Positions 7,879 through 14,555 of a stretch of DNA of 64,000 nucleotides are shown piece by piece (within the stretch, counting starts at the first letter, position 1; each line of letters opens with the position of its first letter). The notes beneath the pieces were generated by a model that did no database searches, was not told the origin of the DNA, and saw nothing but the letters and a program-made list of their open reading frames with translations. Source of the DNA: Halostagnicola kamekurae (GTDB lineage: Archaea; Halobacteriota; Halobacteria; Halobacteriales; Natrialbaceae); NCBI RefSeq assembly GCF_900116205.1, contig NZ_FOZS01000001.1, positions 1,364,001 through 1,428,000 on the forward strand, given 5' to 3'. Made by a program: the position numbers and the translations under genes.

Positions 7879-8256
7879 TCATAGCCCCAGCATCAGCGGC
7901 CCGATGAGCACGCCCATCAGGTGCACGCGGCGCGCCCGAAGGCGGACCGGAACCAGTCCGACCGCGGTCGCGACGACGAACACGCCGATACCGACGAGTC
8001 CGGTGAACAGATAGGAAAGCGCGAGCAACAGCCCGAGGACCACCACCGAGATCTTCCAGTAGGCGAGACGTCCCACGAACTCGAGATACGCGTCACCCAG
8101 CACGATCACGAGGACGAAACCGGCCAGTCCGGCGATGACAATACTCGAGAGCAATATCGGCACGTCGAGCGGTGCGTTCACGTTGTCGAATGCGATCATG
8201 ACGCCGGTTCGGGGCTGTCCGAGCGAGACGAGCGCGAACAGCGCGAAGATCGAGTT
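7879..8256 (-). pseudogene. 3' fragment of a tctA/DUF112-type permease gene split by an integrated element
   Basis: Read on the minus strand, codons NSIFALFALVSLG begin at 8256 and run into MIAFDNVNAPLDVPILL, giving 125 residues with two or three hydrophobic segments to a stop at 7879. This is the C-terminal part of a tripartite tricarboxylate transporter large permease (TctA/DUF112). The missing 288 N-terminal codons are found intact at 13692-14555 on the same strand, beyond the integrated element. Joining at the 11-bp repeat restores one frame of 413 residues. The isolated fragment could at most be translated from ATG 8199 and should not be functional alone. Confidence 0.85.
8246..8256. repeat. 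Left attachment core (attL), 11-bp direct repeat
   Basis: AAGATCGAGTT is found here and again at 13681-13691. It lies exactly at the point where tctA coding sequence ends, encoding N-S-I-F on the minus strand. It marks the left boundary of the integrated element. Confidence 0.85.
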
Positions 8257-8281
8257 GGTGTCTCCTTAGTATTACCTCGTA
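8257..8281. repeat. Left terminal imperfect inverted repeat of the element
   Basis: These 25 bp start right after the attL core. Compared with the reverse complement of 13656-13680 they match at 20 of 25 positions. The inner block AGTATTACcTCGTA (8268-8281) matches 13 of 14. The position directly beside the crossover core fits an integrase binding site. Confidence 0.75.
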
Positions 8282-8314
8282 ACACCCAAGACAACGGGGA
8301 CTAACAACATCACC

Positions 8315-8860
8315 ATGACTGATTGGGAACACATCACGCTGAAGGTTGAACCGGACACGAAAGAGGAATGGAAAAAGTATGCTGAGGAACACCCGGAAGC
8401 GGGGAACTTGAGCCACCTAATCCGGCTTTCTGTTCATAACGAGATGAATACTGAGTCGGAGTTAGATGACGCGCATGTCCCCAAAGAAGATGAGCGGATA
8501 GGTGAGTTGATTGAGAGCGTCAACCAGATTCACGATACTCTTGACACGGTGCAAGCCCGGATTTCTACGCTGGAGCATGATTCAGAAGTCACAGAAGGGT
8601 TTGACATGCAGAAGGCCGTCTTGTCTTTCCTTCCGACTCCGCCGGAATCGGCTCTTGTTCCTAACCCCGATTCCACAGGGTCACACGTCTACAATGACGC
8701 AGACTTTGACGAGTGGGCCGCTACTCCTGAAGGGATTTCCGAACAACTGGGTTCCAACGAGGCTGATGTGAGGGATGCCCTTCAACGTCTTGAGAGCGTC
8801 ACAGGTCTTGTAGATAGTAAGTCGAGTGACAGCCAGATTTACTACTGGAAGAAAGAATGA
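8315..8860 (+). CDS. DNA-binding protein: RHH-like N-terminus, coiled coil, winged-helix-like C-terminus
   Basis: A 181-residue protein, first gene of the element. Residues 1-50 (ITLKVEPDTKEEWKKYAEE and SHLIRLSVHNEM) look like a ribbon-helix-helix unit. Residues about 60-95 (IGELIESVNQIHDTLDTV) should form a coiled coil. The C-terminus from about 125 (EGISEQLGSNEADVRDALQR) reads as a winged helix. Its stop overlaps the integrase start as ATGA, so it is probably made with the integrase. A role as excisionase or directionality/repressor factor is an inference from position. It sits just inside the left attachment site. Confidence 0.75.
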   Translation: MTDWEHITLKVEPDTKEEWKKYAEEHPEAGNLSHLIRLSVHNEMNTESELDDAHVPKEDERIGELIESVNQIHDTLDTVQARISTLEHDSEVTEGFDMQKAVLSFLPTPPESALVPNPDSTGSHVYNDADFDEWAATPEGISEQLGSNEADVRDALQRLESVTGLVDSKSSDSQIYYWKKE

Positions 8861-9864
8861 CTGGGTTAGAAACCCTCACTGACCGCTGGCAGGACGAAGA
8901 TGAGTGGAAGGTCATCAAGAGACTTGAGCGGAAAAAAGGCAAATCTACATTTCAAGAGTATGAGCGGCATTGCCGCCAGTTCCGCGAGTGGTTGGATGGC
9001 AAGAGCCTCTTTGAGGCGGACGAGCTTGACATAGAGGATTGCATCATCGACATGATATATGATGGATACTCTGTTTCGTCGGTAAATATCCGTCATGCCG
9101 CTCTTGGTGAGTTTTTCACCGAAGCTGAGCGGCTTAACGGCAAGCGGATAGACGTGCCCCTCAATGGGAATCCTGTTGAAGAATTGCCGAAGCTGAAGGA
9201 AATTAAGCCGTACAAAGACGCTCTCAATGCCAGAGAAAGCCGAGATGATGGAGTTTGGTTTCTTGAACCAAATGACGTAAGGCAGGTAGCTGAGAATGTT
9301 CCGAAGCCGTACACTCGAAATGAGCTTCTTGTACGACTTTGCTTCCAAACCGGGATGCGAAGGAACGAACTCGTTCAAATCGAACTCGAGCATGTGGACT
9401 TTCAGAACCGTGTTATCACAATCCCGCCCGAGAACGCGAAGAACGGCGAGGAGCGAAAGGTCGGTTACCAATCCACACTTGACGCTCTTATGAGCCATTG
9501 GATTGATACAGTTCGTCCGACCGTTGCAATGGCTTCGGAAAGTGACTATCTATTCCCGAGCAACCGGAGTAAACACATCTCAGGACAGACCTTCAATGAT
9601 GTAGTTGTTGAAGCCGCTGATAACGCTGGAATCCAAGGAACGAGGATGACAAACCGAGCCGGGGAGGAGCGTGCTAAAGTGACTGCTCACGTTCTGAGGC
9701 ATAGTTTTGCGATGGCCGCCAAGTCAAACGGTTGGGATATTTACGCTCTGGCGAAGGCGATGGGTCACTCATCAGTCTCCGTGACTGAGGAAACATATCT
9801 CCACGATGATAATGAGTACATCCTAAACCACTACAGGGATGACGGACCCGGACGGCAGGAATAG
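8857..9864 (+). CDS. int: Tyrosine recombinase/integrase (XerC/D fold, SNJ2-integrase-like)
   Basis: A 335-residue tyrosine recombinase. An N-terminal SAM-like core-binding domain (about 15-115) precedes the catalytic domain with GMRRNE (Arg168), HVLRH (His278, Arg281), MGHSS (His304) and TYLH (Tyr314 nucleophile). All canonical residues are present, so it should be active. It would recombine the 11-bp cores at 8246 and 13681, integrating or excising the element. It overlaps the preceding DNA-binding gene by 4 bp (ATGA). Lower G+C than the host genes fits a transferred origin. Confidence 0.92.
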   Translation: MTGLETLTDRWQDEDEWKVIKRLERKKGKSTFQEYERHCRQFREWLDGKSLFEADELDIEDCIIDMIYDGYSVSSVNIRHAALGEFFTEAERLNGKRIDVPLNGNPVEELPKLKEIKPYKDALNARESRDDGVWFLEPNDVRQVAENVPKPYTRNELLVRLCFQTGMRRNELVQIELEHVDFQNRVITIPPENAKNGEERKVGYQSTLDALMSHWIDTVRPTVAMASESDYLFPSNRSKHISGQTFNDVVVEAADNAGIQGTRMTNRAGEERAKVTAHVLRHSFAMAAKSNGWDIYALAKAMGHSSVSVTEETYLHDDNEYILNHYRDDGPGRQE

Positions 9865-10185
9865 TCAACACACGAACTCCTCGAAAACTTAATCAAAGTA
9901 AATCATATTTTCTTGGGAAAGTCAGGGACGTCATGGGGGTAAAGAAGGCTCCGGCCCCCTCGTTTTCGGCCATTCCAAGCCATTTATTACCGAAATCGGG
10001 GGAATTGGGGTGGGTGGGGGTTGTTTCAATTTAGCAACTTAAAGTCATATCTCTGGCTTTGACTACCGGCCCCATCATTAATATACTATAATTATGAATT
10101 TTATTTCTTTTAAAAAGGGGCTCTTCTTATCACTATAAGTGAGCGGGAGTCGGAGAAAAATAAGACATCCCGTTGGCTAAACAAC
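9865..10185. other. AT-rich intergenic region of the element; candidate replication origin and promoter
   Basis: About 320 bp without a supported gene. It contains a G-run (GGGGTGGGTGGGGG near 10010), then a very AT-rich stretch (about 10075-10125) that would melt easily, then CACTATAAGTG about 50 bp before the ATG at 10186, a possible TATA box. Placement upstream of a rolling-circle Rep operon makes it the best candidate for the element's origin. I could not identify a nick site with certainty. Confidence 0.35.
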
Positions 10186-10344
10186 ATGACTGACTTAGAG
10201 AAAGACATCAAAGTTACGCCGAAAGTTCACAAGAAACTGCAACGTGCAAAACTCGAGATGTATGGAGCAGAGTCCGCCCGGTTCAGCGACGTTATTGAGG
10301 CTCTGACCGACCAAGTACTTAATGAGGGTGAGACGGATGAGTAG
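10186..10344 (+). CDS. Small ribbon-helix-helix-like protein (52 aa)
   Basis: ATG 10186 to TAG 10344. The protein begins MTDLEKDIKVTPKVHKKL and continues through SARFSDVIEAL, a strand-helix-helix pattern typical of small RHH repressors. It comes just before the duplicated-unit protein, whose ATG (10337) overlaps this stop region in a different frame, so the two are likely translationally coupled. A role as copy-number or autorepressor of the Rep operon is inferred from position only. Confidence 0.6.
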   Translation: MTDLEKDIKVTPKVHKKLQRAKLEMYGAESARFSDVIEALTDQVLNEGETDE

Positions 10345-10744
10345 TGATACAACTGTTGCCTCTGGACCGAGGAGGACTTGTATTTATCTTACTGTTGATG
10401 AGTTTAACACTCTCTCTGACGAATTTCGTGCGTCCCCTCTCGCCGAAGATAACCAAGATACGTACGAGAACAACCATCCTACGGCTGAGTACATCCGTCA
10501 ACTTCTCGAAGAACCTGTCGAGATTGATATGAGTGATTATGATGCAACGCCCCCATCGTCGCGGGAGTACAGTCGGAGTATTACGATTCTCTTTCCCGAG
10601 GGCCAATACCAAGACCTCCGAGAGAAATTCGCGCAAACACCATTGCACGATGACAAAAATGCACGAGGGACCTACGCAGGTAACTCTGCGTTCAGTGAGT
10701 ACCTGCGGCGATACCTTCGCCACTACTTGAACAAAGACGAGTAA
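10337..10744 (+). CDS. Unknown protein made of two tandem copies of one short unit (135 aa)
   Basis: Start chosen at ATG 10337, overlapping the previous gene; an in-frame ATG at 10322 is less likely. Residues about 14-57 and 81-127 share one pattern: F, then PL, then D, then TY, then N, then EY(I/L)R and L. F30/F98, PL34/PL102, TY42/TY112 and EY51/EY121 line up with a two-residue indel. The unit begins with a strand (CIYLTV and SITILF), so it may be an RHH-like dimerising fold duplicated in one chain. I do not recognise the family. It lies 36 bp before rep. Confidence 0.7.
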   Translation: MSSDTTVASGPRRTCIYLTVDEFNTLSDEFRASPLAEDNQDTYENNHPTAEYIRQLLEEPVEIDMSDYDATPPSSREYSRSITILFPEGQYQDLREKFAQTPLHDDKNARGTYAGNSAFSEYLRRYLRHYLNKDE

Positions 10745-10780
10745 ACACACGCGGCGCAACCCCAGACGAACTAATTCTAT

Positions 10781-12070
10781 ATGGACCATGAAGTAACGAC
10801 CAGCGGAGAGTACGAGGGCGGCGTGTGTTTACCGTCTCCTGATAGCGACGGGCATACTTGTCCAAGCGCAAAAATTGGTACTCCCCGAAGCGAAACGCAG
10901 TTACTGGCCGAAGACTCACCAGTTGACCTTACCGTCAAGGAGCTTGCAGGGTTGACCCTTGCCGAAGCGACAGACGTCTACAAGGCCCACAGAGCGGGGG
11001 AAGCCGCTAACGAGAGGTATACATCGGGAACCCTTCTCGGGCGAGCAAGACGGCGCTACGGTGCTTTGCTGTCCACTGATAGACAACTCCGACAGGAGTA
11101 CGATAACCCAACAGTGGCCATGCTCACACTCACTGCCAACCCCGTCTTCGGCGGGGAGTGGATTACCCCCCTCGAGCATACTGAAGCTCTTACCGAACCT
11201 CTGAGCAACGTCTTTGCTACGCTCCGCTACCACCTTCGGGAGTACAAGTTTGAGTATGCCGCTGTCCGGGGAGCGACGGACCAAGGCGTTAGCCATTGGC
11301 ACATTGTCATGTGGATTGACGGCAATCCCTCACCCGACACTTTTGCACCTGCTGTCGAGTCATTCATCAACAATTGTGATATAGCGAGCCAAGAACAACA
11401 CCCGCTCGAGGATGCCGTCAAGGTCAACACTATCCCATCGCAGGATTTGAAGCCCATCGGCAAGACCGACCGGGAGCGAGGGACAGTCTCAAAGCTCTCC
11501 CGTTACGTCGCTACGCAAATTCCGCATGTCTCTGGGGTTGACGATATGTCTGAAGCCGAAGCCATGCAGGGAGCGATTGAGTGGGCCGCTTCATCTCGAG
11601 GCTTCCGCACCTCTTCAGGAATCCAACTAACCAATGTTGAAGACAGGAACACTTGTCGAAGCACAAAAAAGTCAAAAAGAACCATTGTTGAGAAACCCTC
11701 GGAGGAACCCCACAACGAGAAAAGCAAGAGCAATCCATGCCATGAGGTATTCGAGATTGGAAGCCAAGTTCAGGAGAGTCCAAGACAGCTTCCACGAGTG
11801 GAACACCGAATCCATAACTTGACCCCACTGCCCACTTGTTCGTGGCCGAAGTGTCATAAAAGTTATAGACATTATCTGTTCCAAAGCCCTGAAAAGAACT
11901 GCTACAAATGGGGCGGTAAGAATAGCCACCAAAGCTTCCCGCCCCCTCATGTTCAGCTTAGGCGGGGTAAAGTCTCCATGCCCAGTTCACTGGAACGGTC
12001 CCATCCGCGATTTGATTTCGGACGAACCGGCGAAGACTTTTCAGTGTCTTCTTCGAGCGTGCCTCGCTAA
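10781..12070 (+). CDS. rep: HUH-endonuclease rolling-circle replication initiator (Rep)
   Basis: The first 285 or so residues are a Rep: motif 1 MLTLTAN (114-120), motif 2 SHWHIVMW with the HUH histidines His172 and His174, and motif 3 LSRYVATQ with the nicking Tyr242, followed by WAASSRGFRTSSG. One catalytic Tyr suggests a plasmid/pleolipovirus-type Rep. It would nick the origin and start replication of the excised circle. Residues 286-429 are Arg/Ser/Pro-rich and overlap an antisense membrane-protein gene and the end of an antisense HTH gene, so the true C-terminus is doubtful; the tail could be run-on sequence after a frameshift. N-terminus from ATG 10781 is plausible. Confidence 0.82.
   Translation: MDHEVTTSGEYEGGVCLPSPDSDGHTCPSAKIGTPRSETQLLAEDSPVDLTVKELAGLTLAEATDVYKAHRAGEAANERYTSGTLLGRARRRYGALLSTDRQLRQEYDNPTVAMLTLTANPVFGGEWITPLEHTEALTEPLSNVFATLRYHLREYKFEYAAVRGATDQGVSHWHIVMWIDGNPSPDTFAPAVESFINNCDIASQEQHPLEDAVKVNTIPSQDLKPIGKTDRERGTVSKLSRYVATQIPHVSGVDDMSEAEAMQGAIEWAASSRGFRTSSGIQLTNVEDRNTCRSTKKSKRTIVEKPSEEPHNEKSKSNPCHEVFEIGSQVQESPRQLPRVEHRIHNLTPLPTCSWPKCHKSYRHYLFQSPEKNCYKWGGKNSHQSFPPPHVQLRRGKVSMPSSLERSHPRFDFGRTGEDFSVSSSSVPR
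11672..11950 (-). CDS. Small membrane protein (92 aa), antisense to the rep tail
   Basis: MRGREALVAILTAPFVAVLF opens a hydrophobic helix (about residues 5-30), and LEYLMAWIALAFLVVGFL (about 67-85) is a second, with a short amphipathic middle part. Hydrophobic segments this coherent are unlikely to be a shadow; the rep frame opposite is Arg-rich, as expected opposite a membrane protein. The ATG lies 7 bp after the stop of the HTH gene on the same strand, so they would be one operon. Function unknown. Confidence 0.5.
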   Translation of the reverse strand: MRGREALVAILTAPFVAVLFRALEQIMSITFMTLRPRTSGQWGQVMDSVFHSWKLSWTLLNLASNLEYLMAWIALAFLVVGFLRGFLNNGSF

Positions 12071-12359
12071 GTCGTTCAGGAGCATACTTCTTGACTGCCC
12101 AGAGTAGCCCCTTTCGGCTCGTTAGAACCTCTAAATCGCTATCGTCGTCATTTCGCTCGAAGACATAACCGATAACTGGAGTATTTCGGTCTCCGTCGAT
12201 TCTGTCTTCTTCCATAGCGTCCATAGCGAGCGAATAGGCGTAACTGTGGCTGATGTCGAGTTCATCAGCGATGTCCGACACAGACACCTTTCCTGATTTA
12301 TTTACGAACTCTACGAGCTGGTCGATTTGGTCTTGACGTGATGCCATATCTTGTGACAT
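11958..12359 (-). CDS. Winged helix-turn-helix DNA-binding protein
   Basis: Start chosen at ATG 12359 (MSQDMASRQDQ), 133 residues; the frame upstream to 12542 does not read like protein. Residues about 8-50 (IDQLVEFVNKSGKVSVSDI then LDISHSYAYSLAMDAM) form a clear wHTH. The rest (LLWAVKKYAPERL, KTLKSLRRFVRNQI) is helical and basic. It is encoded opposite to rep, a common arrangement for an element's regulator, and is followed by the small membrane protein. Control of integrase or rep expression is an inference. Confidence 0.7.
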   Translation of the reverse strand: MSQDMASRQDQIDQLVEFVNKSGKVSVSDIADELDISHSYAYSLAMDAMEEDRIDGDRNTPVIGYVFERNDDDSDLEVLTSRKGLLWAVKKYAPERLSEARSKKTLKSLRRFVRNQIADGTVPVNWAWRLYPA

Positions 12360-12594
12360 ATTTGCCAGCCCGATTTTTTGGGTAAAGCTTACATTGCTCC
12401 TGCTACCAGTCTGTGTCACAACCACACCGACAGGCAACAGTCCCAAGTCGGGCTGAAAGGTTCGGTTCAACCTCATTGGCTCGCTCGCAACTTTGGCAGG
12501 TGGAGAACGAGCCTCAGTCGGTCGGTGCATGGTATCCAACATATTTCTTCAGGGTCCAACCCGCATTAGTGCGGTCTCTTCTGATTCCCAATAG

Positions 12595-13476
12595 GTGATG
12601 GCCGTTAAAAAGACTTTTGTGGAGGTAGTTATGCCATCAGAGATTACTCGATTGTTCTTGATAGTACGGAATCACCCATACTATAAGTGGTTTCGCGACT
12701 CCGGTATAAGTATGCAACAGTCAGAATTTGATTTCAAGGTAGAGAATCGAGTCCATATCATGCCAATCGGGTTTGAGTTTGACCGGGCGCACCTCCCTGC
12801 TAAGGAATTGAAAGCTGATACAGTCATCCTGCTAATGCATGAGTCCGACGATGATGATGAAGAAGACCGAATAAAGGAAATTCAAGATAAGCTGGATGAA
12901 TATGGAATAGACTCCGAGAAGGATAAATGTAGGCTTTTCAATATGTATGATGCTCTCGGCATGATTGCCGAGAAGATTAACGAGTTCAGTTCGGAAGATG
13001 TGTACGTGAATCTATCAACGGGTGGAAAAGTGACCGCGATTGCAGGGATGATTGCCTGTATGGTTGCTGATGCAACTCCTTATTATGTTCAAGCGAAAGA
13101 TTATGGCCCAACACCGCCCGAAGGAGTCGCTGAAATAACAAAGCTACCACGCTATCCAATTGATTCGCCAGATTATCAAGAAATTGCAGTTCTAAATTTC
13201 ATCAAGGAAAGAACGTCAGAGGACTCAGCCCCAACAAAGGGAGAACTAATTGAATTTGGGGAGGAGATAGGTCTACCGTTCATTGCAGACCATGATGTAG
13301 AACAGAAAGGAAAATACCGGCTCTTAGACAACCACGTAATAAACCCCTTGGAAGATGATGGGTATGTTACCACAGAAAAGAAAGGTCGTGAGAAAATCGT
13401 GAAACTCACTTCCGATGGACAGAACACCCTCCATGCATTTCGGTATCTTATCGAGGATGAATATACTGTGGAGTAG
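12595..13476 (+). CDS. HFX_2341/DUF6293-like protein: CARF-type Rossmann domain plus winged helix
   Basis: VHIMPIGFEFDR begins a Rossmann-like domain that includes VILLMHESDDDDE, YVNLSTGGKVTAIAG (the NxSTGGK-type ligand loop of CARF-like domains) and TPYYVQAKDYG. The C-terminal 90 residues (AVLNFIKERT to EKIVKLTSDGQN) form a winged helix. This matches the haloarchaeal HFX_2341 regulators, distant relatives of CRISPR-linked Csa3. Family logic suggests nucleotide-ligand sensing and DNA binding; no cas or cyclase gene is nearby. The start is uncertain: ATG 12712, about 29 bp after a TATA-like ACTATAAG, would fit the family N-terminus better than 12595, which has its own GGTG before ATG. Low G+C; it is cargo beside attR. 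Confidence 0.75.
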   Translation: MMAVKKTFVEVVMPSEITRLFLIVRNHPYYKWFRDSGISMQQSEFDFKVENRVHIMPIGFEFDRAHLPAKELKADTVILLMHESDDDDEEDRIKEIQDKLDEYGIDSEKDKCRLFNMYDALGMIAEKINEFSSEDVYVNLSTGGKVTAIAGMIACMVADATPYYVQAKDYGPTPPEGVAEITKLPRYPIDSPDYQEIAVLNFIKERTSEDSAPTKGELIEFGEEIGLPFIADHDVEQKGKYRLLDNHVINPLEDDGYVTTEKKGREKIVKLTSDGQNTLHAFRYLIEDEYTVE

Positions 13477-13655
13477 TTAATTCCATCCAAATAAAGTTGA
13501 TATATACCGGAAATTTGGACGTGTGTCTGTTAAAAATCTGGACTACCCAATTCGGTTCGAAATTCGTTCCGTTGTTCAAAATATATAAAAAATCACTCTA
13601 CTAACACGGTTATATGATGCACCAACTATTAGTGGTTAGAAGTAATTCTACGTAA

Positions 13656-13680
13656 TACGAAGTAATACTGAGTGGACACA
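13656..13680. repeat. Right terminal imperfect inverted repeat of the element
   Basis: Partner of 8257-8281, lying directly inside the attR core with the same 11-bp spacing between the core and the conserved block (13656-13669). A further copy of the AAGTAAT unit lies at about 13640, so this end may hold two integrase-binding sites. Confidence 0.75.
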
Positions 13681-13691
13681 AAGATCGAGTT
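13681..13691. repeat. Right attachment core (attR), 11-bp direct repeat
   Basis: Second copy of AAGATCGAGTT, in the same orientation as 8246-8256. It sits where the 5' tctA fragment breaks off. Removing one copy with the intervening DNA rebuilds the permease frame. Confidence 0.85.
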
Positions 13692-14555
13692 TGCCGTGTC
13701 GACGCCGCTCGTCGCGACGATGTACCCCCGATTCCCCGATTCGCCTGGAACGAAGACGAGGACGGCGACCGCAGCGATAGCCGCCGAGATACCCGGAACG
13801 TACCCGACGACGGCGCCCGCGAACGAACCCGCAAGCGCCGTTATCCCGACCAGCCGACGCGGCATCCGAATCGCTTCGTCGCGCTGGGGCGGGACGCCGC
13901 CGCCGCGAATCGCTTCGATCAGTACGGGTGCGCCGAACAGTCCGGCGAAAAGCGGCGCGAGCATCCCGCCGGCCTCGAGGGGCGCGTCGGGGGTGAGATC
14001 GAGCGTCGCCGCGCCGAGTGCCGTCGCCAGACCGAACGAGAGGGCGGCCCCCGCACATCGCTTCCAGGTGCGCTCCGAGGCGATCAGTGCGACGACGACC
14101 ATCGCGAGCACGATCGAGAGGTTCGCGCTGATCGTCGGATAGACGGCAGTGACGCCCCAGGTGATCGGGAGCGCGAGCGGGACCGCCGCGAGAACTGCGA
14201 GCAGACTCCCGAGCGCGGAGAGGCGGATCGCCTCGTACCCGCGGCCCTCGAGCACCATTCGGTGTGCGGGCAGCGCGGTGACCGCCATCTCGGCGTCCGG
14301 CACTCCGAGCGCCATCGCCGGAACGGCGTTGACGAACGTGTGGACGACGCCAGCCGCGAGCATCGCACAGCCGACGAAAAGCGGCCGCCCGGGAACCGAG
14401 GGCGCGACGCCCGCCAGCAACAGCGCGAAGTTGTTCGCGTGCAGTCCCGGGATCAGCCCGCTACAGCTACCGAGGGCCGCACCCGCGAGTACCCACGCGA
14501 CGAGCTGGGCCGACAGCGCGGGATCGACCAGCGACTCGAGAACGGGGACGGCCAT
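13692..14555 (-). pseudogene. 5' part of the split tctA/DUF112-type permease gene
   Basis: Minus-strand frame from ATG 14555: 288 codons of a polytopic membrane protein with GLIPGLHANNFALLL, VPDAEMAVTALPAHRM and YVPGISAAIAAV, features of the TctA/DUF112 family of tripartite tricarboxylate transporter permeases. The frame breaks after TSGVDTA, at the right 11-bp core, and runs into about 20 element-encoded residues up to a stop at 13629. The remaining 125 codons are at 7879-8256. No TctB or TctC gene is adjacent, as is common for archaeal single-gene members. The transporter should be inactive while the element is in place. Confidence 0.87.

Follow-up and report, generated by a model that had tools for sequence, protein, structure and literature searches.

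A small integrative element in tctA of Halostagnicola kamekurae and a recurrent protein-coding attachment site in haloarchaea

Integration in archaea is described as directed mainly at tRNA genes, sites within protein genes being isolated cases, and a 2021 review asked whether protein-gene sites have the dyad symmetry needed by tyrosine recombinases (PMC8371274). The 64-kb stretch of the Halostagnicola kamekurae genome analysed here (contig NZ_FOZS01000001.1, positions 1,364,001 to 1,428,000; hereafter, the window) raises the same question at a single locus, where a low-GC element of 5,435 bp is integrated within tctA, interrupting one protein gene. Why should an element settle in the middle of a permease gene? 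We consider it probable (roughly 0.8) that the element is a small integrative plasmid and that its target in tctA serves at least three integrase groups as a recurrent attachment site (attB) within a protein-coding gene, picked for its dyad. The two junctions and the two parts of the interrupted gene are located in the window as follows.

7879 to 8256, minus strand: C-terminal tctA fragment, comprising the core and the codons down to the stop
8246 to 8256, minus strand: core repeat at the junction of the element and the C-terminal half of tctA, reading AACTCGATCTT on the gene strand
13681 to 13691, minus strand: core repeat at the junction of the N-terminal half of tctA and the element
13681 to 14555, minus strand: N-terminal tctA fragment, made up of codons 1-288 and the core; the open reading frame (ORF) runs on to 13629

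The 11-bp direct repeat AAGATCGAGTT occurs at both element ends (8246-8256 and 13681-13691), and no direct repeat shared by the two boundary regions is longer. The ORF of the N-terminal half has a tail of 20 aa, counted from codon 289 to its stop and mostly encoded by the element. Removal in silico of the element together with one core joins 875 and 367 nt into an open frame of 1,242 nt encoding 413 aa, and both halves match the Pfam family PF01970 TctA (profile length 423) at adjacent profile positions, the N half at 2-298 and the C half at 296-422. GC content ranges from 0.60 to 0.70 outside the element and from 0.42 to 0.55 inside it. Once freed of the element, the window aligns over ~4,565 bp to the congeneric genomes G019 (93%) and G018 (88%), with a gap-free junction. 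A whole tctA is present in two congeneric genomes, and the joined protein aligns with its uninterrupted counterpart, at 97% identity in G019. Direct-repeat cores, an integrase near one end and an empty site in relatives together identify a site-specific integrated element, and the attP junction of its excised form would read GGAGACACCAACTCGATCTTTGTGTCCACTC. A first-pass annotation of this DNA had proposed that an integrated element splits one TctA gene and that excision would restore the gene in frame, and had suggested looking in relatives for an uninterrupted copy; the cores, the two PF01970 halves, the 413 open codons and the gap-free empty sites bear these proposals out. No tRNA gene is present in the 64-kb window. 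Of 125 genomes in the family, 124 have a TctA match, as do 381 of the 392 sampled across the order. Three complete genomes (G242, G255 and G383) are without any tctA match, indicating that this near-universal gene is dispensable.

The interruption is not confined to the window. A joined-protein search found tctA broken at the same residues (A-N-T/S-I-F) in 11 of ~420 Halobacteriales genomes, the window included. The remaining cases belong to the same family (G066, G111, G114, G119 and G090) or to other families (G137, G278, G406, G416 and G236); genes broken by frameshifts or contig ends, for example in G151, G209, G301, G336 and G259, were left out of the count. The core lies on codons 289-292 in every case with both junctions located, the C-side core of G236 having been read from a separate inspection of the locus after automatic core placement missed it. 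The distance between the tctA halves is 3.4 kb in G278, ~5 kb in G416, ~6.4 kb in G137 and 6.7 kb in G406, and reaches 38 kb in G111, 54 kb in G114, 59 kb in G066 and 121 kb in G119. The G066 insert encodes a portal, a head protease, a tail tube and an MCM helicase, which marks it as a tailed provirus. The G119 insert (C1:519500-644000; L066, L067, L156) comprises two tandem ~60.7-kb provirus units, with 100% identity over the compared parts; an attP-type junction lies inside it at the same core. Either this is genuine tandem lysogeny or the assembly has read through a circle. Both tctA halves are still open in 9 of the 11 cases, the N half being frameshifted in G114 and G416.

The integrases adjoining split tctA genes fall into three supported groups. 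Group I includes those of the window genome (G000) and G137, with G259 as a relative; group II those of G278, G406 and G416; and group III those of G066, G119, G236 and G114, carried by ~60-kb tailed proviruses. Groups I and II share ~31-37% identity; group III integrases, which bear a C-terminal zinc-ribbon-like CxxC..CxxC segment, are ~15-21% identical to either. Group II integrases (at least 69% identity) were found in 3 of 392 genomes, every one at tctA, and group III integrases (at least 54% identity) in four genomes, again every one at tctA, with the next matches (46% or less) located elsewhere. The group I relative in G259 (49-51%) splits a gene for a phytoene-desaturase-like FAD protein, and that in G145 (42-43%) a TspO-like gene, the halves joining in frame in both cases; these are putative names read from the joined sequences. 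The G259 element (L075:6726-15680) belongs to group I, spans ~9 kb and has the core AACACCTTCTT; the G145 element (L076:4238-8442) spans 4.2 kb, carries a PF07232 Rep and has the core AACTGGGTGTTCG. Insertion-site specificity thus tracks integrase phylogeny.

These results show the first-pass annotation to have been too narrow, as the site is a recurrent attB of several integrase groups. Its expectation that integrases of this kind usually occupy tRNA genes likewise misfits the clade: ARAGORN identified a tRNA within ~1.5 kb at 1 of 64 related-integrase loci (L032-L061, L091-L124), and the nearest group I relatives reside in protein genes. The wider set of haloarchaeal Xer-like integrases may lie mostly at non-tRNA sites. 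In G073, two equal-scoring integrases (C1:634531-635715 and 706342-707526; 38% to group III) are located ~72 kb apart, possibly forming another tandem provirus. Assignment of the window integrase to the SNJ2 type was considered, at a review's threshold of 30% identity over 60% of the protein and with the HHPV4 integrase, ~71% identical to IntSNJ2 (PMC5867852), as proxy. It was rejected: the best local match to the HHPV4 integrase spans 18 aa (E 4.4), genuine SNJ2-type integrases encoded by this genome match it at 43-47%, and the attB is tctA, in a window devoid of tRNA genes, rather than the tRNA gene that defines the type.

What, then, recommends these codons to such different integrases? Over 67 intact tctA genes, the site has the consensus GCGAACACGATCTTCGC, with arms GCGAA and TTCGC around 7 bp. 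With every position of these genes scored for inverted 5-bp arms set 7 bp apart, the site ranks 1 of 1187; at a separation of 6 or 8 bp it yields no dyad signal. The attP of the window has the same layout (ACACCAA-CTCGATC-TTTGTGT, 6/7). The G259 target forms a perfect 6-7-6 dyad in the rebuilt attB (CTCGAA-CACCTTC-TTCGAG, 6/6), and the G145 target, GCCAAA-CTGGGTG-TTCGGC, scores 5/6. A 7-bp overlap with inverted core sites is the layout of lambda and has been put forward as a reason why tRNA anticodon stem-loops are used (PMC8371274). We infer from this geometry that the GCGAA-N7-TTCGC dyad is the recognition element, and the A-N-T-I-F-A codons are probably used as attB because conserved protein sequence and high-GC codon choice keep the dyad in place. 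In the window as it stands, the exact GCGAA-N7-TTCGC motif occurs 0 times against 0.33 expected, a count that is little informative.

Several observations weigh against this interpretation. Arm and spacer lengths were picked after seeing the site, and the dyad of the window's own attB is imperfect (GCAAA/TTCGC, 4/5). Nucleotide conservation places the site only in about the top 8-13% of tctA, so that extreme conservation, tried as the sole reason for the site, is insufficient alone. In G413 (C1:296447-309581; L080), a separate integrase element splits tctA at codons 269-272, with core CCCGGTCGGTACG; this second attachment site suggests that the gene itself may also matter. No integrase was found directly beside the split tctA of G090, which ends at contig edges, or of G111, and the group of both was assigned from junction sequences only. 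Finally, the element is single-copy in its own genome assembly, which contains neither a circle nor a second copy.

The gene content of the element agrees with a small plasmid equipped for integration, and includes the following features.

8269 to 8275, minus strand: arm-type repeat GTATTAC/GTAATAC adjoining the left core; the same motif flanks the G137 element cores
8315 to 8860, plus strand: 181-aa partner protein, overlapping the integrase start
8857 to 9864, plus strand: 335-aa tyrosine integrase, SAM-like domain plus PF00589, catalytic R...HxLRH...GH...Y
10186 to 10344, plus strand: 52-aa ORF with a weak VAPB_antitox match (E 0.05, below cut-off)
10322 to 10744, plus strand: 140-aa ORF, no family
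10781 to 12070, plus strand: 429-aa HUH rolling-circle Rep, PF07232/DUF1424, HWH motif
11958 to 12542, minus strand: 194-aa winged-helix-like regulator with sub-threshold helix-turn-helix matches, in tail-to-tail overlap with rep
12595 to 13476, plus strand: 293-aa HFX_2341/DUF6293 protein, CARF-like Rossmann domain plus winged helix, cargo or regulator
13652 to 13668, plus strand: two arm-type repeats, GTAATAC-NNN-GTAATAC, adjoining the right core

The PF00589 match of the integrase (116.1 bits, cut-off 27.1) identifies it as a tyrosine recombinase, and its catalytic residues (the R168/R169 region, H278-xx-R281, GH304 and Y314) are invariant in the group I alignment; matches to its SAM-like N-domain are sub-threshold, and the best NCBIfam model, XerA_Arch, scores 124 bits, below the cut-off of 220. 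The partner protein has weak Pfam matches and is predicted to combine a ribbon-helix-helix-like N-terminus, a coiled coil and a winged-helix-like C-terminus; homologues 39% to 25% identical to the window's own copy adjoin the integrase in each of the 7 group I/II-type elements compared. The GTAATAC arms are common to the window element and that of G137, both group I, and stand beside the cores for 4 of 4 copies in the 16-kb G137 locus and 3 of 4 in the window element. The PF07232 match of the Rep (45.3 bits, cut-off 23) identifies a rolling-circle Rep of the family found in the alphapleolipovirus HHPV1 (PMC13107129), and relatives of the protein are encoded on small haloarchaeal plasmids (27-30% matches). 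The relation of the HFX_2341/DUF6293 protein to Csa3 is below threshold, and a role of this cargo as a nucleotide-sensing regulator is possible; relatives (39-49%) are present on many haloarchaeal megaplasmids. No virion genes were found in the element, and spike/VP and NTPase families are absent among its proteins, which sets it apart from pleolipoviruses. No relatives of group I integrases were returned from IMG/VR or from the GTDB r220 contig collection, and the Rep had no match in IMG/VR or in phage records.

In the mechanism that we propose, the 5.4-kb element, which carries a HUH Rep, would circularise, and the Xer-like tyrosine integrase and its DNA-binding partner would recombine the element attP with the chromosomal attB, formed by tctA codons 288-293 (A-N-T/S-I-F-A). 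At least three integrase groups would each have adopted the same attB on their own, in elements ranging from small plasmids to ~60-kb tailed proviruses, the dyad of the site providing two inverted half-sites around a 7-bp overlap with the geometry of tRNA anticodon stem-loops. Integration disrupts the permease, and precise excision would restore its gene. Along the window branch, tctA has accumulated 24 silent and 4 replacement changes, and along the sister branch 19 and 7; the lack of an excess of amino-acid changes indicates that the insertion is recent and that tctA was functional until recently. The element is probably still mobile.

The strongest competing explanation is that one ancestral tctA specificity was passed among elements by shared ancestry or module swapping, with no independent choice of the dyad. 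Groups I and II, which are homologous over their full length (31-41%) and have the same partner-protein architecture, would fit such a history. The group I relatives in G145 and G259, however, target other genes, arm repeats differ between groups, and group III, at ~15-21% identity, has another architecture, with its zinc-ribbon-like C-terminus. We therefore regard a common inherited specificity as unlikely.

The first-pass annotation had also cast the element as a reversible off-switch, in which condition-dependent excision and re-integration would toggle the permease to the benefit of the host, much as in active lysogeny. Sa3int prophages in hlb are documented to switch in this way (PMC6597384, PMC13123087), and the exact in-frame restoration of tctA, the open halves in 9 of 11 cases and the purifying selection on the window branch would all accord with it; any recent precise insertion, however, would look alike. 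The assembly holds only the integrated form, and in the two parallel cases with a frameshifted N half (G114 and G416) excision would not restore the gene. Loss of tctA is moreover tolerated, the gene being lost or broken elsewhere in some complete genomes. A switch of this kind is thus doubtful, and it seems equally improbable that tctA contains an on/off locus maintained as such, repeatedly entered and vacated by diverse elements and conferring population-level phase variation across haloarchaea, with transient permease loss benefiting the hosts. The notion that the two frames are separate genes rather than halves, named in the first-pass annotation as what would overturn it, is virtually untenable given a single PF01970 family with adjacent profile positions, uninterrupted 413-aa orthologues and gap-free empty sites.

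Recurrent use of tctA for its dyad thus remains the preferred reading, and it can be set beside known systems. Protein-coding attB sites in archaea include the HMG-CoA reductase gene for virus BJ1, a metal-efflux gene for Msmi-Pro1 and an AsnC regulator gene for NitGar-E6 (PMC8371274). These are likewise tyrosine-integrase elements inside an archaeal protein gene, but they are single cases, whereas several integrase groups share the tctA site, which recurs across several families of a single order; the dyad question that the review left open for protein-gene sites (PMC8371274) is here met with a measured dyad. The dusA integrases of bacteria similarly use one conserved protein gene as a site in many genomes (PMC4482086). 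There, a single bacterial integrase family cuts dusA at its 5' end (PMC4482086), whereas the cut in tctA falls at codon 289 of 413, the element does not rebuild the gene, and several archaeal integrase groups use the site. Prophages in hlb of Staphylococcus aureus and in comK of Listeria (PMC6597384, PMC13123087, PMC6872733) also insert mid-gene and are repaired by precise excision, which in those systems has been shown to be regulated and consequential, whereas for the tctA element any such role would be hypothetical. SNJ2-type and pleolipoviral proviruses share with it a haloarchaeal tyrosine integrase beside DNA-binding helper genes, and HHPV1 a PF07232 Rep, but SNJ2 uses a tRNA-Met gene, and the tctA element has no virion genes and an integrase without meaningful similarity to that of HHPV4. 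Our literature search, with most subscription papers outside its coverage, turned up no paper describing tctA as an attB in archaea. What is new is that at least three integrase groups, and elements of very different types, recur at a single 11-bp stretch with a measured dyad.

For haloarchaea, this means that several integrase groups use one near-universal protein gene, all at the best conserved 5-7-5 inverted repeat of that gene. A rule may be suggested whereby conserved codons that chance to form a core-type dyad become attB, which predicts other sites of this kind. The elements at tctA, with their very different sizes, would also offer ready-made integration systems for halophile genetics.

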